Positions 37,878-45,903 of a stretch of 64,000 bases of DNA are shown here, piece after piece. The notes under the pieces are model-generated. The model was not told the DNA's origin, searched no databases, and saw nothing but the letters and a program-made list of their open reading frames with translations. This DNA comes from Burkholderiales bacterium. Lineage in GTDB: Bacteria; Pseudomonadota; Gammaproteobacteria; Burkholderiales; Burkholderiaceae_C. Made by a program: the position numbers and the translations under genes. Location: contig JANXYH010000090.1 in NCBI GenBank assembly GCA_025350145.1, positions 1 through 64,000 of the forward strand, given 5' to 3'. Position 1 is the first letter of the stretch, and each line of letters begins with the position of its first letter.

Positions 37878-38579
37878 ATGGGCAAGCTGGTGGTTTCGCT
37901 GGATGGCGTGGTAATCAAGGATGTCCAGATCACCAAGGACAAGACCACGCTCGGCCGCCGGCCTTACAACGACATCGTGATCGACAACTTGGCGGTCAGC
38001 GGCGAGCACGCGGTCCTGCAAATGGTCGGCAATGACGTCTTCATCGAAGATCTCAACAGCACCAACGGTACCTACATCAACGGCAAGGCGATCAAGAAGC
38101 AATTGCTGACCCACAACGACACGGTAGAGATCGGCAAGTACAAGATCAAGTACCTGGTCGAGGACGGCGGCGACTATGAGCGCACGCTGATCATCCGTCC
38201 CGGCGCCAACGCGGCCGCGCCCGCGCCGGTCCTCAGCCGCACCTCGGCCATGCCTGGTGCGGCCGGATTGGGTGCCAGCCCGCCACCTTCGATATATTCG
38301 CCGCCGCCTGCGCCCAGCATGCCGGCCATGATCCGGGTGCTCAGCGGCGCTGCGGCAGGGCGCGAGGTCAGTCTGACCAAAGTTGTAACCACGGTGGGCA
38401 AACCCGGCGTTCAGGTCGCGGCCATCACCAAACGCCCGAGCGGCTATGTGATTGCCCACGTCGAAGGCGCGCTGCGACCGGCTGTCAATGGCGTGTCTTT
38501 GGCCACTGACACCGCGCCGCTGAAGAATGGCGACCTGATCGAGCTGGCGGGCACGCAAATGCAATTCATCCAGGCTTAG
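37878..38579 (+). CDS. FHA domain protein (two FHA-like halves)
   Basis: TLGRRPYNDIVIDNLAVSGEHAVLQMVGNDVFIEDLNSTNGTYINGK; C-terminal half has a second weaker FHA-like pattern. Confidence 0.93.
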   Translation: MGKLVVSLDGVVIKDVQITKDKTTLGRRPYNDIVIDNLAVSGEHAVLQMVGNDVFIEDLNSTNGTYINGKAIKKQLLTHNDTVEIGKYKIKYLVEDGGDYERTLIIRPGANAAAPAPVLSRTSAMPGAAGLGASPPPSIYSPPPAPSMPAMIRVLSGAAAGREVSLTKVVTTVGKPGVQVAAITKRPSGYVIAHVEGALRPAVNGVSLATDTAPLKNGDLIELAGTQMQFIQA

Positions 38580-38799: not shown

Positions 38800-39570
38800 A
38801 TGAAAATCCGCGTCCTCGGTTGTTCGGGCTCCATCGCTGCGGGCTGTCGCACAACCGCGTTCCTGCTGGATGACGGGGTGCTGATCGACGCCGGGACGGG
38901 TGTCGGCGACCTCAGCCTGGACGAATTGGCGCTTATTGACCACGTTCTCATCAGCCACTCGCACCTGGACCATATCTTGGGCGTGCCGCTGCTGGCAGAC
39001 AGCGTGATGCGCAGGCGCGTTGGTCGGGCGCCGATCCAGATCCACGCCTTGCCCGAGACCTTGCAAACCTTGCGGCAGCACATCTTCAACAATGCGGTTT
39101 GGCCGGACTTCACCCGCCTGCCCTCGCCCGAGCGGCCGATACTCCGGCTCAGTCCATTTGCGGTCGGCCAGGTGCTGTCGTTTGGCGAACACCGGATCGA
39201 AGTCTTGCCGGCATCACACACGGTGCCGGCGGTCGGCTTTGCGGTCCTGGCGCCCCGGGGTGCCTGGGTCTTCACCGGCGACACCGGGCCCAACCCCGCG
39301 CTCTGGGCCCGATTGGCGCAAATGGATGTGGCCCATCTGGTGATCGAGACCGCGTTCCGCAATGACGAAAAGGCATTGGCGCTGCGCAGCCGGCACCTGC
39401 ATCCGCTGGCGCTGCGCGACGAACTGGCGCAGCTCAAGCCTGGCGTCAACGTCCTGATCACCCACATCAAGCCGGGTGAACTGGAGACCGTGATGCACGA
39501 GATCGCGGCATTGGGCCTGCACCACCGAGTTCAGGCCCTGGTAGCCGGGCAACAAATCGCTCTGGACTGA
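38800..39570 (+). CDS. MBL-fold metallohydrolase (class II cyclic-nucleotide phosphodiesterase-like)
   Basis: [34 protein letters not shown]...[13 protein letters not shown]...VFTGDTGPN. Confidence 0.85.
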
Positions 39571-39741: not shown

Positions 39742-39758
39742 TTGGCACGGTCCCTGCA
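39742..39758 (+). promoter_or_regulatory. Sigma-54 (RpoN) -24/-12 promoter upstream of pilin gene
   Basis: TTGGCACGgtccCTGCA versus YTGGCACG-N4-TTGCW, one mismatch, about 45 bp 5' of ATG. Confidence 0.75.
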
Positions 39759-39803: not shown

Positions 39804-40223
39804 ATGAAACGTGTTCAAAAAGGTTTTACCCTGATCGAACTGATGATCGTCGTGGCGATCATCGGCATATTGGCCGCAGTGGCACTGCCGGCCTACCAGC
39901 AGTACACCTTGAAGGCCAAGTTCAGTGAGGTGGTGCTGTCCACGGCATCGGTCAAAACCCAGGTCGAACTCTGCGCCCAGGACCAAAATGGCGTGTCGGG
40001 TTGCACCGCCGGCACCAACGGCATTGACCCCAACATTGCCGTCGGCGCCGGCAAGGTGGGAAGCCTGACCACCGCCGCCGGCGTCGTCACTGCGACGGCC
40101 ATTTCCGGCAGCGGCCTGACTGGCCAGACCTACGTCCTGACGGCCGCCTTCAGCAGCACCACGCTGCAAACGACCTGGACCGTCTCGGGTACCTGCTTGA
40201 CAGGCTCACCCAAACTCTGCTGA
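39804..40223 (+). CDS. pilA: Type IV major-pilin-like protein
   Basis: [42 protein letters not shown] prepilin signal; C-terminal disulfide-loop-like CLTGSPKLC. Confidence 0.95.
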
Positions 40224-40318: not shown

Positions 40319-40354
40319 AAGCGGGCCTTCTGTGAAGAAGGCCCGCTTCTTTTC
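40319..40354 (+). terminator. Rho-independent terminator after the pilin gene
   Basis: aagcgggccttct-gtga-agaaggcccgctt followed by cttttct; perfect 13-bp stem. Confidence 0.85.
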
Positions 40355-40395
40355 TGCCTGGCAGGCCGCACTGCGCGCCCGCTGAGCCTGCCCAG

Positions 40396-43300
40396 ATGCA
40401 CCGCAACGATCCGATCACCGAGGACAGCCGCCTTGCCGTCTGCATTTTGCTGGTGGGCCTGGGCGTGGCGTGGCTGGGGGCGCTGCTGGGGCTGAATTTC
40501 GCGCCCACGGCAACCATCGAACTGGCCCTGAGCCAAGCCAGCGGACTGGCCACCATGATGGGCCTGTACGGCAATGCGCCGGTCTTCGCGGTGATGTTCT
40601 GGGCCTCGGCGCCCAGCCTGCGTCAACAACGTGGGGTGCTGGTGGGTTGGGCCCTGACGATGGCGGCGCTGTGCTGGGCGCTGCGCGACCGCCTGCCGCG
40701 CAGCCTGGAGGCCACCGGAGATTTCTCCTGGACCTTCTTTCTCGCCGCCGGCTTGGCCATACCGTGCGCGATGGCGCTGCTCTGGCGCGCAGTCCGGCCG
40801 CAGGGCCAGGCGCTGGCCCTGCGGCTGCGCTGGCTGCTGGCGTTGGGAGCCCTGTTCTTGCTGGTGCCAGCACCAATCTTGAACCTGAGTGCGACCCTGC
40901 ATCCCTTGACACTGGACATGCTGGCGCTGCATTTCGACCATCTGGCCGGGCTGGGCCTGACGCCGGCATTGTTCGATCTGGTGCAGCGTGTGCCCTTGCT
41001 GCCGCAACTGATGGGCTCGGCCTACGGCATGACCCCGCTGGCGATGTTGGCGGTGGCCTTGCTGCAGTTGCGTGGCAAGCCTGCGCATGTGGCGTCGGCC
41101 AGCTTGGCCTGGGTGCTGATGACCGGCTTCGCCACACTGGCCTACCACTGCTTTCCGATCACCGGGCCGACCTACGTCTTTGGTCCCCACCAATTCATCG
41201 ACGCGCTGCGCCACGCCGCCCAGCAACCGATGCAGCCGACAGCGGTGGCGGGTTATCCGCGCAACGGCATGCCGTCGATGCACTTCGGCTGGATGCTGGC
41301 GGCGGCGGTGCTGTGGTGGCAATCCGGTACCCGGCCGTGGTCGCGGGCAGCGCTGTTGGCGATGACGGCGCTGACGGCCTTGGCGACGCTGTACTACGGC
41401 GAGCACTACCTGATCGACCTGATCGTGGCGGTGCCCTTTGTCTTGTCCAGCATCGCCCTGGCCAGCACCGGCGTGACCATGGCCAGGCGCTGGCCGGTGG
41501 CGGCAGCGGGTTTTGTCTGCTGGCTGGTCTGGGTGCTGTTGCTGCGCACCCAAATGCCGCAGTTCGTGGCCGCGCCCTGGCTGGCCCAGTTGCTGCTGCT
41601 GGCCACCGTTGTCGTCGTGCTGGCCCAGATCCTGGGCCTGCGCCGATTCAAGGCGGCAGCCGGCACGGGCTGGGTTGCGCAGCCCCGGGCGCGGCCGATC
41701 AAGGCGCCTTTGCAGCGCCGCTTCGGGCTGATGTTCTGGCTCTCCGGTGGCGCCGCACTGGTCTACCAGGTGACCTTTGCCAAGTCGCTGGCGCTGGTCT
41801 TTGGCAGCATGGCGACGGCGACCTTGTCGGTACTGGCCACCTTCCTGGGCGGGATGGCGCTGGGCTCGGTAGCCGGCGGCATGCTGGCCCAGCGGCTACG
41901 GGCGCCGCTGCGGACCTATGCCGCGGTCGAGTTCGGCATCGGCCTGTACTGCGCGGCAACGCCCTGGCTGTTTGACGCCGTTCAAGGCCTGTACGTCTGG
42001 CTGGCGGGTGGCGGTGCAGCCGACGCGCCGACCTTGCTGGCGCTGCGCGTGGCCCTGGGCGCCGCGGTGTTGCTGGTGCCGACGCTGCTGATGGGCACCA
42101 CCTTGCCGCTGCTGGCGTCGGCGCTGGGGCCGCAGGGCGGCGGCATGGGCCTGCGGGTCAGCGGCCTGTACTTCGCCAACACCGCCGGTGCGGCGGTCGG
42201 TGCGGTGTTGGCCGCCTACGTCTTGATGCCGTTGTTGGGCCTACGCGCCACCACCTTGGTCGCTGCGGTGTTGAACCTGAGCGTGGCCTGGTTGGCGATC
42301 CAGCCGACGCCGGCCGCGCCGGCCGGCCAAGCCCGCGACCTGGCCCGCGAACAAGCGCCCGCGCCGCAGCACACCTGGCCACGCAGCGCCGGCTGGGCCG
42401 GGCTGGCCTCGCTGGGCCTGGTAGGCGTGCTGTCGCTGGGCCTGGAGGTGGTCTATGTGCACCTTCTGGCGATCGTTGCCGGCAACAGTGTCTACGCCTT
42501 TGGGCTGATGCTGGCCACGTTCCTGACCGGCCTGGCGATGGGTGGCGCGGCGGCCCGCCGGGTGCTGCTGTCGGCCCGTGGCGACGCGGCGCTGGCCCTG
42601 GTCGTGGCACTGGCGGGGCTGGCCATCGCGGTGGCGCTGGGCAGCGGCTTCTGGAACGACATTCCCGGCTACTTCGGCAGCTTTGCCCAGTACCCTTTGG
42701 CACGCGGCTTCGGGGCGCGTGAGGCCATCCGTGGCCTGGTCTGCGCCCTGGTCATGGTGCCGCCCACCATCTTCATCGGTGCGGCCTATGTGCTGGCGAT
42801 GGCCTTGGTCACGGCCAGTGGCTGGCGCTCCAGCACGCTGGCCTTGGGCGCAGGCGCTGCGGTCAACACCCTGGGCAACATCAGCGGCGTGTTGCTGTTC
42901 GGCTTCATGCTGCTGCCGCGGCTGGGCGGCATGGCGGCAACCCAGGGCATCGCCGTGTCGGCAGCGCTGCTGGCCCTGCTGGTCTGGCTTTGTGCCGCCC
43001 GGCAGTGGCTGCGCAGCGGTGTGGCGCTGTTGGCCATGTGTCTGCTGGCGCTGGGCTATGGCGGCACCCGGCAACTCGACCTGGACCAGCTCAGCTCGGG
43101 CGCCAACGTCTACTTTCAGGCCCAGAACTGGGGCCACACCATCGACCATGCAGAAAGCCTGGACGGCGGATTGACCACCGTGGCCCAGCAGCAGACGGCG
43201 CAGGGCCCGCTCAAGACCTTGTTGACCAACGGCAAGTTTCAGGGCAATGACGCGGTGCAGGGCGAGATGCCGGCACAGATCGGCTTTGCGATGGCGCCGC

Positions 43301-44064
43301 TGCTGCACCAGCCTCGGCGCGAAGCCGCCCTGGTGATCGGCTACGGCACCGGCGTGACCTCGCGCGTGCTGCACGATGCCGGCTTTGCGCGGCTGGACAT
43401 TGCCGAGCTCAGCGCCGATGTGCTGCGCCTGGCCGACCGCCATTTCGCCGCCCAGAACCAGCAGGTGTCGCGCCAACCCGGAGTGCAGGTGCACACCACC
43501 GACGGCCGCAACTTCATGCTGCTCAGCCAGCGCCGCTATGACCTCATCAGCATCGAGATCACCTCGATCTGGTTTGCCGGCGCGGCGTCGTTCTACAACC
43601 AGGAGTTCTACCGCCTGGCGCGGCAGCGGCTGGCTCCCGGCGGGGTGTTGCAGCAATGGCTGCAGTTGCACCACCTGTCGCGGCTGGACCTGTTGACGGC
43701 CCTCAGCACGGTCCGCGCCGAGTTCAGCCAGGTGTCGCTGTATGTGATCGGTGGCCAGGGCATCCTGGTGGCCAGCAACCAGCCTGCGCCGGCCACAGCC
43801 GCCAGCCTCCAGGCCCTGCACGACGCGCCCGGACTGGCCAAAGTGCGCCAACTGGCGCAGCGCGAGTTGGACAGTTACGCCGACGACCTGTTGCTCGACA
43901 CCCAGGGCATAGACCGGTTCATCTTTGACAACGGCGTCGATCGCTCGGCCTGGCTGTCCAGCGACGACAACCTGGCGCTGGAGTACAGCACCCCCAGATC
44001 CAATGCCGGGGACAATCCCATCACGGTCGAGGCCAACCTGGCGCTGCTGCGCAAGTACCGCTAG
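40396..44064 (+). CDS. Fusion: N-terminal AUR1-like PAP2 phosphatase + polytopic segment + C-terminal spermidine-synthase-like domain
   Basis: YPRNGMPSMHFGW and YYGEHYLIDLIVAV (PAP2 C2/C3), then MFS-like helices, then AALVIGYGTGVTSRVLHDAGFARLDIAELSADVLRLA...DGRNFMLLSQRRYDLISIEITSIWFAG. Confidence 0.85.
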   Translation: MHRNDPITEDSRLAVCILLVGLGVAWLGALLGLNFAPTATIELALSQASGLATMMGLYGNAPVFAVMFWASAPSLRQQRGVLVGWALTMAALCWALRDRLPRSLEATGDFSWTFFLAAGLAIPCAMALLWRAVRPQGQALALRLRWLLALGALFLLVPAPILNLSATLHPLTLDMLALHFDHLAGLGLTPALFDLVQRVPLLPQLMGSAYGMTPLAMLAVALLQLRGKPAHVASASLAWVLMTGFATLAYHCFPITGPTYVFGPHQFIDALRHAAQQPMQPTAVAGYPRNGMPSMHFGWMLAAAVLWWQSGTRPWSRAALLAMTALTALATLYYGEHYLIDLIVAVPFVLSSIALASTGVTMARRWPVAAAGFVCWLVWVLLLRTQMPQFVAAPWLAQLLLLATVVVVLAQILGLRRFKAAAGTGWVAQPRARPIKAPLQRRFGLMFWLSGGAALVYQVTFAKSLALVFGSMATATLSVLATFLGGMALGSVAGGMLAQRLRAPLRTYAAVEFGIGLYCAATPWLFDAVQGLYVWLAGGGAADAPTLLALRVALGAAVLLVPTLLMGTTLPLLASALGPQGGGMGLRVSGLYFANTAGAAVGAVLAAYVLMPLLGLRATTLVAAVLNLSVAWLAIQPTPAAPAGQARDLAREQAPAPQHTWPRSAGWAGLASLGLVGVLSLGLEVVYVHLLAIVAGNSVYAFGLMLATFLTGLAMGGAAARRVLLSARGDAALALVVALAGLAIAVALGSGFWNDIPGYFGSFAQYPLARGFGAREAIRGLVCALVMVPPTIFIGAAYVLAMALVTASGWRSSTLALGAGAAVNTLGNISGVLLFGFMLLPRLGGMAATQGIAVSAALLALLVWLCAARQWLRSGVALLAMCLLALGYGGTRQLDLDQLSSGANVYFQAQNWGHTIDHAESLDGGLTTVAQQQTAQGPLKTLLTNGKFQGNDAVQGEMPAQIGFAMAPLLHQPRREAALVIGYGTGVTSRVLHDAGFARLDIAELSADVLRLADRHFAAQNQQVSRQPGVQVHTTDGRNFMLLSQRRYDLISIEITSIWFAGAASFYNQEFYRLARQRLAPGGVLQQWLQLHHLSRLDLLTALSTVRAEFSQVSLYVIGGQGILVASNQPAPATAASLQALHDAPGLAKVRQLAQRELDSYADDLLLDTQGIDRFIFDNGVDRSAWLSSDDNLALEYSTPRSNAGDNPITVEANLALLRKYR

Positions 44065-44154: not shown

Positions 44155-45903
44155 ATGAGCCTACCGATGACCCACCCGGCCATGCTGGCCGCGACTGCAC
44201 TGCTGGCCGGGGCGCTGCCGCCGCTGCTGGCCTACAGCCTGTCGCCCTCGGCGACGATGCTCAACCAATGTGCCGCCGTCGCGCTCTGGGGCTGGTGGGT
44301 GGTGGCTGTCGCGCCGCAACAGGCGCGTCGTGCACTGTGCGGTCCTGCCGGCAGCCTGGTGCTGGCCCTGCTGCTGCTGGCTGCGGCGGTGCTGTGGGCG
44401 ATGGCGGTGGCCCTGCCCAGCTCATTGGGCCTGTCGGCGCTGGGCCTGCTGGCCGGCGCGGTGCTGCTGGTCTGGGCCGGTGCCGACGCCGCCACTAGGC
44501 CGGCCGCTGTCCAGCTCTTCGCCTGGTTTGCTGCGGGTCTGCTGCTGGCCGGCCTGCTCTCGGCCGGGGTGGCGCTGGCGCAGGTGTTTGCGCCAGGCTG
44601 GGGCGAGGGCGGCCTGATCGCCGTTTCCGGCCTGGCCGGCCGCGCGGTCGGCAACCTGCGCCAGCCCAACCACTTGTGCAGCCTGCTGCAATGGGCGCTG
44701 ATCGCGCTGGTTCTGCTGGCCGAGTTGCGCTGGCTCAAACCCGCCATGGCCGTGGCAATGGTGGTCCTCTTGGTCTGGGCGGTGGAGCTGACAGCCTCCC
44801 GCACCGGCGCTGCCGGCCTGGCTCTGCTGGCGCTGTGGGGGGCGCTGGACCGGCGCTTGTCGCGACACGCCAGGTGGCTGCTGCTGGCCATGCCGGTCGT
44901 CTACCTGGTGGCCTTTGGCGCGATGGCCGCCTGGGGCCATTTCGAACACCAGAGCATTGGTGCGGCCGCGCGGCTGCAGGCCGAGTCCAGCGGCATCGAC
45001 AGCCCCAACACCCGTGGCCGGATCTGGGCCAATGCGCTGGCGCTGGTGGCGCAGCAGCCCTGGCTCGGGGTCGGCTTTGGCGAATTCAATTTCGCCTGGT
45101 CACTGACGCCGTTCCCCGGCCGCCCGACCGCGTTCTTCGACCACACCCACAACCTGCCACTGCAGCTCGCGGTCGAACTGGGCTTGCCGCTGGCTGCGCT
45201 GGTGCTGGCGCTGTCCAGCGCCGCGCTGTGGCGTGCCTGGCGACGCAGTGGCCAGGCACGCGGCGACACCGCGCTGGCGGCGCGGGCTGCCTGCATGCTG
45301 GTGGCGACGATAGGCCTGCACAGCATGGTCGAGTACCCGCTGTGGTACGCCTATTTCCTCTTGCCGGCGGCGTTTGCCTGGGGCTTTGCGCTGGGTGTTC
45401 CGGGCGCGGCGGGCCCGGCTATAACCCAGCCCGGCCCAGGCTGGACGGGCGTGGCGGCGGGCATCCTGCTGGCCGCGGGCGGGGTGTTCGCGGTCATCGA
45501 CTACCACCGGGTGGTGGTGATTTTTGCCCCGGCCGACGACAGCGCGCCGCTGGCCGAACGGATCGCACTGGGCCAACGCAGCCCGCTGTTTGCCCACCAC
45601 GCCGACTATGCCGCCGCCACCAGCGGCGAGCCCGGCGCGGCGGCGGCGCTGGGCTTTGAGCGGGCCACGCACAGCCTGCTCGACACCCGCTTGATGGTGG
45701 CCTGGTCCCGACACCTGGCCGCCAGCGGCGAGTTGGGCCTGGCGCAAGCGCTGGCCGACCGCTTGCGCGAGTTCCGCAACCGCGATGCGGACAGCTTCTT
45801 TGCCGAGTGCGCAGCCGGCGCAGCGCAGCCGCCTTTCCAGTGCCAGCTGGCAGCGTCAGCCCACGGCTGGCGCGAGTACCTGGCCGCCGCGCGCAGGCGC
45901 TGA
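44155..45903 (+). CDS. Wzy/PglL-family O-oligosaccharyltransferase-like membrane protein
   Basis: VGNLRQPNHLCSLLQWALI..., SGIDSPNTRGRIWANALALVAQQPWLGVGFGEFNFAW, FFDHTHNLPLQLAVELGLP, HSMVEYPLWYAYFLLPAAFAWG. Start could be 44167. Confidence 0.88.
   Translation: MSLPMTHPAMLAATALLAGALPPLLAYSLSPSATMLNQCAAVALWGWWVVAVAPQQARRALCGPAGSLVLALLLLAAAVLWAMAVALPSSLGLSALGLLAGAVLLVWAGADAATRPAAVQLFAWFAAGLLLAGLLSAGVALAQVFAPGWGEGGLIAVSGLAGRAVGNLRQPNHLCSLLQWALIALVLLAELRWLKPAMAVAMVVLLVWAVELTASRTGAAGLALLALWGALDRRLSRHARWLLLAMPVVYLVAFGAMAAWGHFEHQSIGAAARLQAESSGIDSPNTRGRIWANALALVAQQPWLGVGFGEFNFAWSLTPFPGRPTAFFDHTHNLPLQLAVELGLPLAALVLALSSAALWRAWRRSGQARGDTALAARAACMLVATIGLHSMVEYPLWYAYFLLPAAFAWGFALGVPGAAGPAITQPGPGWTGVAAGILLAAGGVFAVIDYHRVVVIFAPADDSAPLAERIALGQRSPLFAHHADYAAATSGEPGAAAALGFERATHSLLDTRLMVAWSRHLAASGELGLAQALADRLREFRNRDADSFFAECAAGAAQPPFQCQLAASAHGWREYLAAARRR

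Follow-up and report, generated by a model that had tools for sequence, protein, structure and literature searches.

Modifications of pilins (glycans, phosphocholine, phosphoglycerol and phosphoethanolamine) shape adhesion, recognition and phage attachment. Phospho-headgroups are known to reach pilin through the Neisseria phosphoform transferases PptA and PptB, which belong to the sulfatase/EptA superfamily and not to PAP2. In Pseudomonas and its relatives, the pilin-accessory proteins TfpO, TfpW and TfpX/Y/Z are encoded behind the major pilin, with a terminator in the gap, and vary among related strains. The terminator that follows the pilin in such cassettes attenuates the accessory gene, and TfpX/Y/Z influence pilus assembly without modifying the pilin (PMC11841053). 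Here we examine a gene in such a position within a 64,000-nucleotide stretch of DNA from a Burkholderiales bacterium (assembly GCA_025350145.1, contig JANXYH010000090.1, positions 1 to 64,000), hereafter the window. The gene (40396–44064, + strand, ATG start) encodes 1222 amino acids (aa) and fuses a PAP2_3 half to an MFS-like membrane region and a spermidine-synthase-like domain. We conclude that the fusion enzyme is real, that it is rare and patchy in its distribution, and that it is tied to type IV pilins. We give an even chance to the proposal that it is a pilin-accessory enzyme that puts a phospho-headgroup on pilin or its glycan, its S-adenosylmethionine (SAM)-type domain making or preparing a second change. 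The open-access literature yielded no paper that combines spermidine synthase, pilin and PAP2; papers on spermidine synthase and pilA concerned other topics.

One reading frame encodes a PAP2_3 half and an MFS/spermidine-synthase half

The open reading frame (ORF) runs across 1222 codons without an internal stop. Its first part (residues 1–437; 40396–41706, +), delimited by Pfam, AlphaFold2 (AF2) and Foldseek, has 12 transmembrane (TM) helices and contains the PAP2_3 domain (PF14378, residues 178–355; E 2.3e-21, 76.9 bits against a Pfam cut-off of 27). AF2, Foldseek and loop charges delimit the second part (residues 438–890; 41707–43065, +), a 12-TM MFS-like region with a 13th TM helix at about 872–890. 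The third part (residues 891–1222; 43066–44061, +) is a cysteine-free spermidine-synthase/SAM-fold domain, defined by Pfam, Foldseek and a profile alignment to the solved aminopropyltransferase 1uir. Within it, Pfam Spermine_synth matches residues 967–1117 (E 1.3e-6, 28.6 bits against a cut-off of 22.9), and the second half as a whole scores 73.8 bits with the NCBIfam model MFS_SpdSyn, 'fused MFS/spermidine synthase' (NF037959; cut-off 40). A PADLOC scan for phage-defence genes gave only mad2, over the SAM-fold stretch 962–1085 (E 5.9e-8), and a role in phage defence was not favoured.

The putative PAP2 catalytic set of the window protein is His296, His337 and Asp341, carried by PSxH and HxxxD motifs, and the landmarks of its SAM fold are GYGTG at 982–986, E1004, D1036 and E1054. 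Ten full-length orthologues, each a single ORF, share 39–57% identity with it along the entire length, and GMPSMHFGW, G(E/Q)HY..DL, G(Y/F)GTG and SIE(I/V)(T/S)SIW are kept in all 11 full-length sequences. Three more distant fusions (L046, L047 and L083) are also single ORFs. A first-pass annotation of this DNA had read the locus as one uninterrupted ORF with the PAP2 motifs GMPSMHFGW and GEHYLIDL, a second membrane region and a class I SAM-fold, spermidine-synthase-like domain, and had named two separate proteins or a frameshift in relatives as the opposing reading. That opposing reading is ruled out, because the orthologues, including the distant ones, are single ORFs with conserved motifs; the domain assignments hold above the Pfam and NCBIfam cut-offs, and the second membrane region, which is indeed present, is better described as a 12-TM MFS-like fold plus one further helix.

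Among described proteins, the PAP2 half most resembles AUR1/inositol phosphorylceramide (IPC) synthase, with which it shares the PAP2_3 domain, the PSMH and H..D motifs and the best fold match, but the protein described here is bacterial and fused. The C-terminal half resembles the NF037959 proteins in its MFS-like barrel and spermidine-synthase-like domain. It differs from them in being joined to a 12-TM PAP2_3 half and in forming a separate clade whose motifs are GYGTG and SIEIT where many NF037959 relatives have GFGSG and SEPSNPW.

The fusion gene lies behind a type IV pilin

The gene immediately upstream of the fusion is pilA (39804–40223, +), which encodes a 139-aa type IV pilin (Pfam Pilin, NCBIfam PRK10574) and is the top one of 21 matches to the N-methylation motif in the genome. 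This arrangement, a type IV pilin gene immediately before the fusion and in the same orientation, is found in the window and in L022, L023, L024, L026, L027, L029, L030, L031 and L047; the L047 pilin was located by tblastn, and in L022 a TfpZ gene stands between pilin and fusion. Three further loci (L021, L025 and L028) begin at contig ends and were left out of this count. Since the whole 4.56-Mb window genome holds only about 21 pilin-type genes, counted as N-terminal matches, this repeated adjacency is not due to chance.

The gap between pilA and the fusion contains an intrinsic-terminator-like hairpin (40321–40355, +) with an 11-bp stem and a T-rich tail. Such hairpins occur in 10 of 10 pilin–fusion gaps, the one in L022 being weak; when the gaps were shuffled (L047 left out), 0–1 of 100 sequences matched the hairpin score, but 13 of 100 did so in L022. 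About 60 bp before pilA is a sigma-54-like promoter, TGGCACggtccCTGCA (39743–39758, +). The sigma-54-like pattern has two occurrences in the window, where chance would give 0.35, and resembling sites precede the pilins in L023, L029 and L030.

The PAP2 His/His/Asp set is intact in 13 of 14 fusions. L083 (6515–9955) has degenerate PAP2 motifs (PFMP; GKTY..A) with intact synthase motifs, and among the copies whose flanks can be read it alone lacks a pilin. This loss suggests a link between the PAP2 chemistry and the pilin, although as a single case it is weak evidence. The pilin-free surroundings of L083 could also be taken to favour a role in remodelling phospholipid headgroups that has nothing to do with pili and in which the pilin is an incidental neighbour, and PAP2_3/AUR1 chemistry does act on phospholipids. 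Because the pilin-and-terminator adjacency recurs in loci of several families, and L083 has itself lost the PAP2 catalytic residues, we regard this explanation as having only a faint chance of being right.

The slot behind the pilin is swappable among sister species

The gene order in the genus is FHA, MBL, pilA, a variable slot, PglL, MoaC and M48. In the window, this corresponds to an FHA-domain protein (37878–38579, +) and an MBL-fold hydrolase (38800–39570, +), both conserved neighbours by Pfam and synteny, then pilA, the fusion in the variable slot, and a PglL/O-antigen-ligase-like oligosaccharyltransferase (44155–45903, +; Pfam Wzy_C, Wzy_C_2 and PglL_A, synteny). The slot is filled by TfpZ in six sister genomes (L122, L128, L129, L130, L134 and L136; of those checked with NCBIfam, L122 and L128 score above the cut-off and L130 just below), by an EptA/CptA-like phosphoethanolamine transferase in L124 (2606–4396) and by a second PglL in L121; it has no recognised gene in L120, L125, L126, L127 and L131. 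By its slot position, not by its sequence, we class the fusion among pilin-accessory genes, and as a functional class this is well supported by position. The EptA-family protein in the equivalent slot of L124 links the locus to PptA/PptB by functional analogy only, not through a family shared with the fusion.

The fusion is far larger than TfpX/Y/Z, carries PAP2 and SAM-type domains and gave no match to the TfpX/TfpZ model NF041437 in an NCBIfam scan. It might nevertheless be a TfpX/Y/Z-like assembly factor that aids pilin folding or entry into the fibre, its enzyme-like domains being lipid-only or partly relict: it shares its slot with TfpZ, and TfpX/Y/Z leave the pilin unmodified (PMC11841053). 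Several loci (L022, L023, L025, L028 and L046) carry both genes, however, so that the fusion is no simple replacement of TfpZ, and throughout the main clade the catalytic residues do not vary. We consider an assembly factor of this kind unlikely, though its chance is not negligible.

PglL is a constant neighbour in the genus, whether or not the fusion is present. It adjoins the fusion in the window, L025 and L028 and lies nearby in L031, and L046 has a TfpW-like protein together with arabinofuranose-type genes. One might thus picture an enzyme that recycles lipid carriers or prepares glycan precursors for PglL- or TfpW-type pilin glycosylation, its PAP2 part dephosphorylating undecaprenyl-type carriers or trimming a lipid-linked sugar. 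But no ligase adjoins the fusion in L024, L026 or L029, sister species have PglL without the fusion, and the MFS and SAM-type parts would be left unexplained; we find this alternative doubtful. An obligate partnership with PglL is ruled out by the sister species that have PglL alone and by fusions with no PglL in their immediate surroundings (L024, L026, L027 and L029). The first-pass suggestion of a role near the pilin gains strength from the pilin–terminator–gene layout in distant relatives, whereas its suggested link to PglL is weakened.

At L046 (44–12000), the cluster comprises a pilin, TfpZ, a TfpW-like TPR protein, UbiA, DUF212, FAD-binding and SDR genes, and the fusion. In gene content, it resembles a locus for arabinofuranose biosynthesis or pilin arabinosylation, which is a putative pathway assignment.

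The synthase-like domain has lost hallmarks of polyamine synthases

In the profile alignment to 1uir, the D/E of GGG(D/E)G, which binds decarboxylated S-adenosylmethionine (dcAdoMet), corresponds to Thr985, and this Thr is invariant in the fusion clade. In the catalytic loop, the first Asp is replaced by Glu and the second by Ser (Ser1057). As noted at first pass, the classic GGGDG is missing and GYGTG stands in its place. The same annotation had stressed ISIEIT at a position where Asp is usual; the Asp-to-Glu change is real, but the weightier changes are the D-to-T substitution in GGGDG and the lost second Asp. The fusion is the sole speE-family match in the window genome, and with the speE model TIGR00417 it scores 39.7 bits, far under the cut-off of 249.55.

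Genome content bears on the same point. AdoMet decarboxylase (PF02675) was not found in the window genome (G000, 98% complete) or in G251 and G481 (both 100% complete). Across 14 distinct fusion genomes, it is present in 5 and missing from 9; three of the negative genomes are at least 98% complete and the others are metagenome-assembled genomes (MAGs) or drafts whose completeness is not stated. One could still think of a working aminopropyltransferase or polyamine enzyme that is coupled to transport and adds aminopropyl groups or makes surface polyamines: those sequence relatives of the C-terminal domain that have solved structures are spermidine synthases or related aminopropyltransferases, and the five host genomes encode the decarboxylase. 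The Thr and Ser substitutions, the speE score and the decarboxylase-free complete genomes count against it, and we judge it highly improbable. Ordinary polyamine synthesis, already held doubtful at first pass, is very unlikely on these motif changes and gene absences, and an ordinary polyamine synthase was excluded from the candidates on the same grounds. An analogy with the surface spermidine ascribed to Pseudomonas aeruginosa PA4774 was dropped as well, because PA4774, a thermospermine synthase of 349 aa (PMC11107197), is too short for the membrane architecture of the fusion.

A parallel in chemistry is the fungal N-terminal histidine methyltransferase NHMT, which joins a membrane domain to a spermidine-synthase-like one, methylates proteins destined for secretion and was separated from spermidine synthases by loss of the D/E of GxG(D/E)G (PMC10349129). 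NHMT and the fusion have in common a membrane-anchored domain without this residue, but the 7-TM domain of NHMT is reported to be unique to filamentous fungi (PMC10349129), and NHMT has no PAP2. Given the lost D/E and the missing AdoMet decarboxylase, SAM-dependent transfer, probably of a methyl group, is more likely than aminopropyl transfer.

A periplasmic location is predicted for both catalytic domains

AF2 modelled the N-terminal half with a predicted local distance difference test (pLDDT) score of 83.7 and the C-terminal half with 73.9; 25 TM helices were counted from the models. With the PAP2 half, Foldseek returned Aur1-Kei1 (probability 0.99, E 0.048), IPC synthase (0.94) and LpxE (0.99) as top Protein Data Bank (PDB) matches, and a PDB sequence search found nothing. 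The C-terminal half matched spermidine synthases, and its membrane part matched the MFS-type transporter SLC37A2 (9ucm, E 5.6e-6).

Positive (K/R) loop charge follows the alternating pattern of a protein with its N-terminus in the cytoplasm (p=2e-4), and synthase-only relatives show a matching alternation (p=0.001), in shuffle tests that take the loops as independent. On this pattern, the loops that bear the PAP2 motifs would lie outside, as would the C-terminal domain, so that both catalytic domains of the fusion are predicted to be periplasmic, a topology that is supported but not proven. The C-terminal domain is devoid of cysteine in 14 of 14 fusions. Synthase-only relatives (L043, L044, L084, L087–L090 and L095–L099) show a conserved Cys pair in this domain, present at its two positions in 14 and 13 of 21 sequences, which may form a disulfide, hinting at a wider MFS/spermidine-synthase family with its enzyme domain outside the cytoplasm.

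The fusion is rare and patchily distributed

The window fusion and its 13 relatives form one clade (support 100/99), as a single fusion event would predict; the data fit a fusion that arose once and has spread patchily since. The clade is scattered across Betaproteobacteria, with one Methylomicrobium; cultured carriers include Mitsuaria chitosanitabida (L028) and Methylomicrobium sp. RS1 (L029). Its tree disagrees with host taxonomy: a Rhodocyclaceae MAG is closest to the window, and Methylomicrobium is nested among the betaproteobacterial set. Such branching makes horizontal spread the likely cause of the patchy distribution. Of the genomes searched for the PAP2 half, 4 of 401 in the family, 2 of 399 in the order and 2 of 369 in the class have it; each count includes the genome of the window. 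The additional match at class level is a stand-alone PAP2_3 protein of 433 aa (L116, 2668–3969), with a GT2-like gene behind it. Synthase halves that lack PAP2 are common, with matches in 84 of the order's 399 genomes at E 1e-10 (partial and weaker matches counted). In G331 (contig C26), a candidate for a second PAP2 fusion was discarded, as only the synthase half matched.

MFS/spermidine-synthase proteins without PAP2 also occur near or just upstream of pilins in family f23 (L043 5559–11595, L084, L095, L097, L098 and L099), at times two in tandem, with FHA, MBL and GAF-T2SSE ATPase genes nearby. In a Rhodoferax MAG that also has the fusion, a TPR-bearing MFS/spermidine-synthase protein leads an apparent minor-pilin operon (L118, 7663–12671).

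Discussion

The reading that we find most likely is that the fusion modifies pilin or its glycan in the periplasm, and we give it roughly equal chances of being right or wrong. The fusion gene, in its slot behind the major pilin, would probably be expressed through read-through of the pilin terminator and would yield an inner-membrane enzyme with 25 TM helices and with both catalytic parts facing the periplasm, the site of the pilin head domain. Most likely, the PAP2_3 part reacts with a phospholipid or polyprenyl-phosphate donor to form a phospho-histidine intermediate, and it would then hand the phospho-headgroup to the adjoining pilin or its glycan; the MFS-like barrel and the spermidine-synthase-fold domain most likely add or prepare a second, SAM-dependent change, probably a methyl group. 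We infer pilin or its glycan as the substrate, the group transferred and any transport by the MFS-like part. In the lipid- or glycan-modifying role put forward at first pass, the pilin link and the AUR1-like PAP2_3 fold thus stand, and the chemistry itself is inferred. In the known routes to phosphocholine on pilin, PptA is paired with the synthesis of phosphatidylcholine (PMC10434233), which makes a headgroup-plus-methylation scheme plausible, though unproven for the fusion.

Several points weigh against periplasmic modification of the pilin. The Foldseek E-values of the PAP2 half are weak (0.048) despite the high probability, and the pilin in L046 lies 8 kb from the fusion. Position alone is no proof of modification, as TfpX/Y/Z assist assembly without modifying the pilin. 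A SAM-using domain in the periplasm would also require exported SAM. In one version of the proposal, the MFS barrel would itself carry SAM outward, and a periplasmic SAM transferase and the PAP2 part would together place a methylated phospho-headgroup on the type IV pilin; we consider this improbable, if conceivable.

Known pilin modifications rest on a few enzyme families, and if the proposal of periplasmic pilin modification is true, the accessory slot would gain an enzyme type unrelated to these. The fusion would also give the PAP2_3–MFS–synthase architecture its first role and point to SAM-type chemistry at the outer face of the inner membrane. If the SAM-exporting version is true, the wider MFS/spermidine-synthase family would consist of SAM-dependent enzymes that act outside the cytoplasm.

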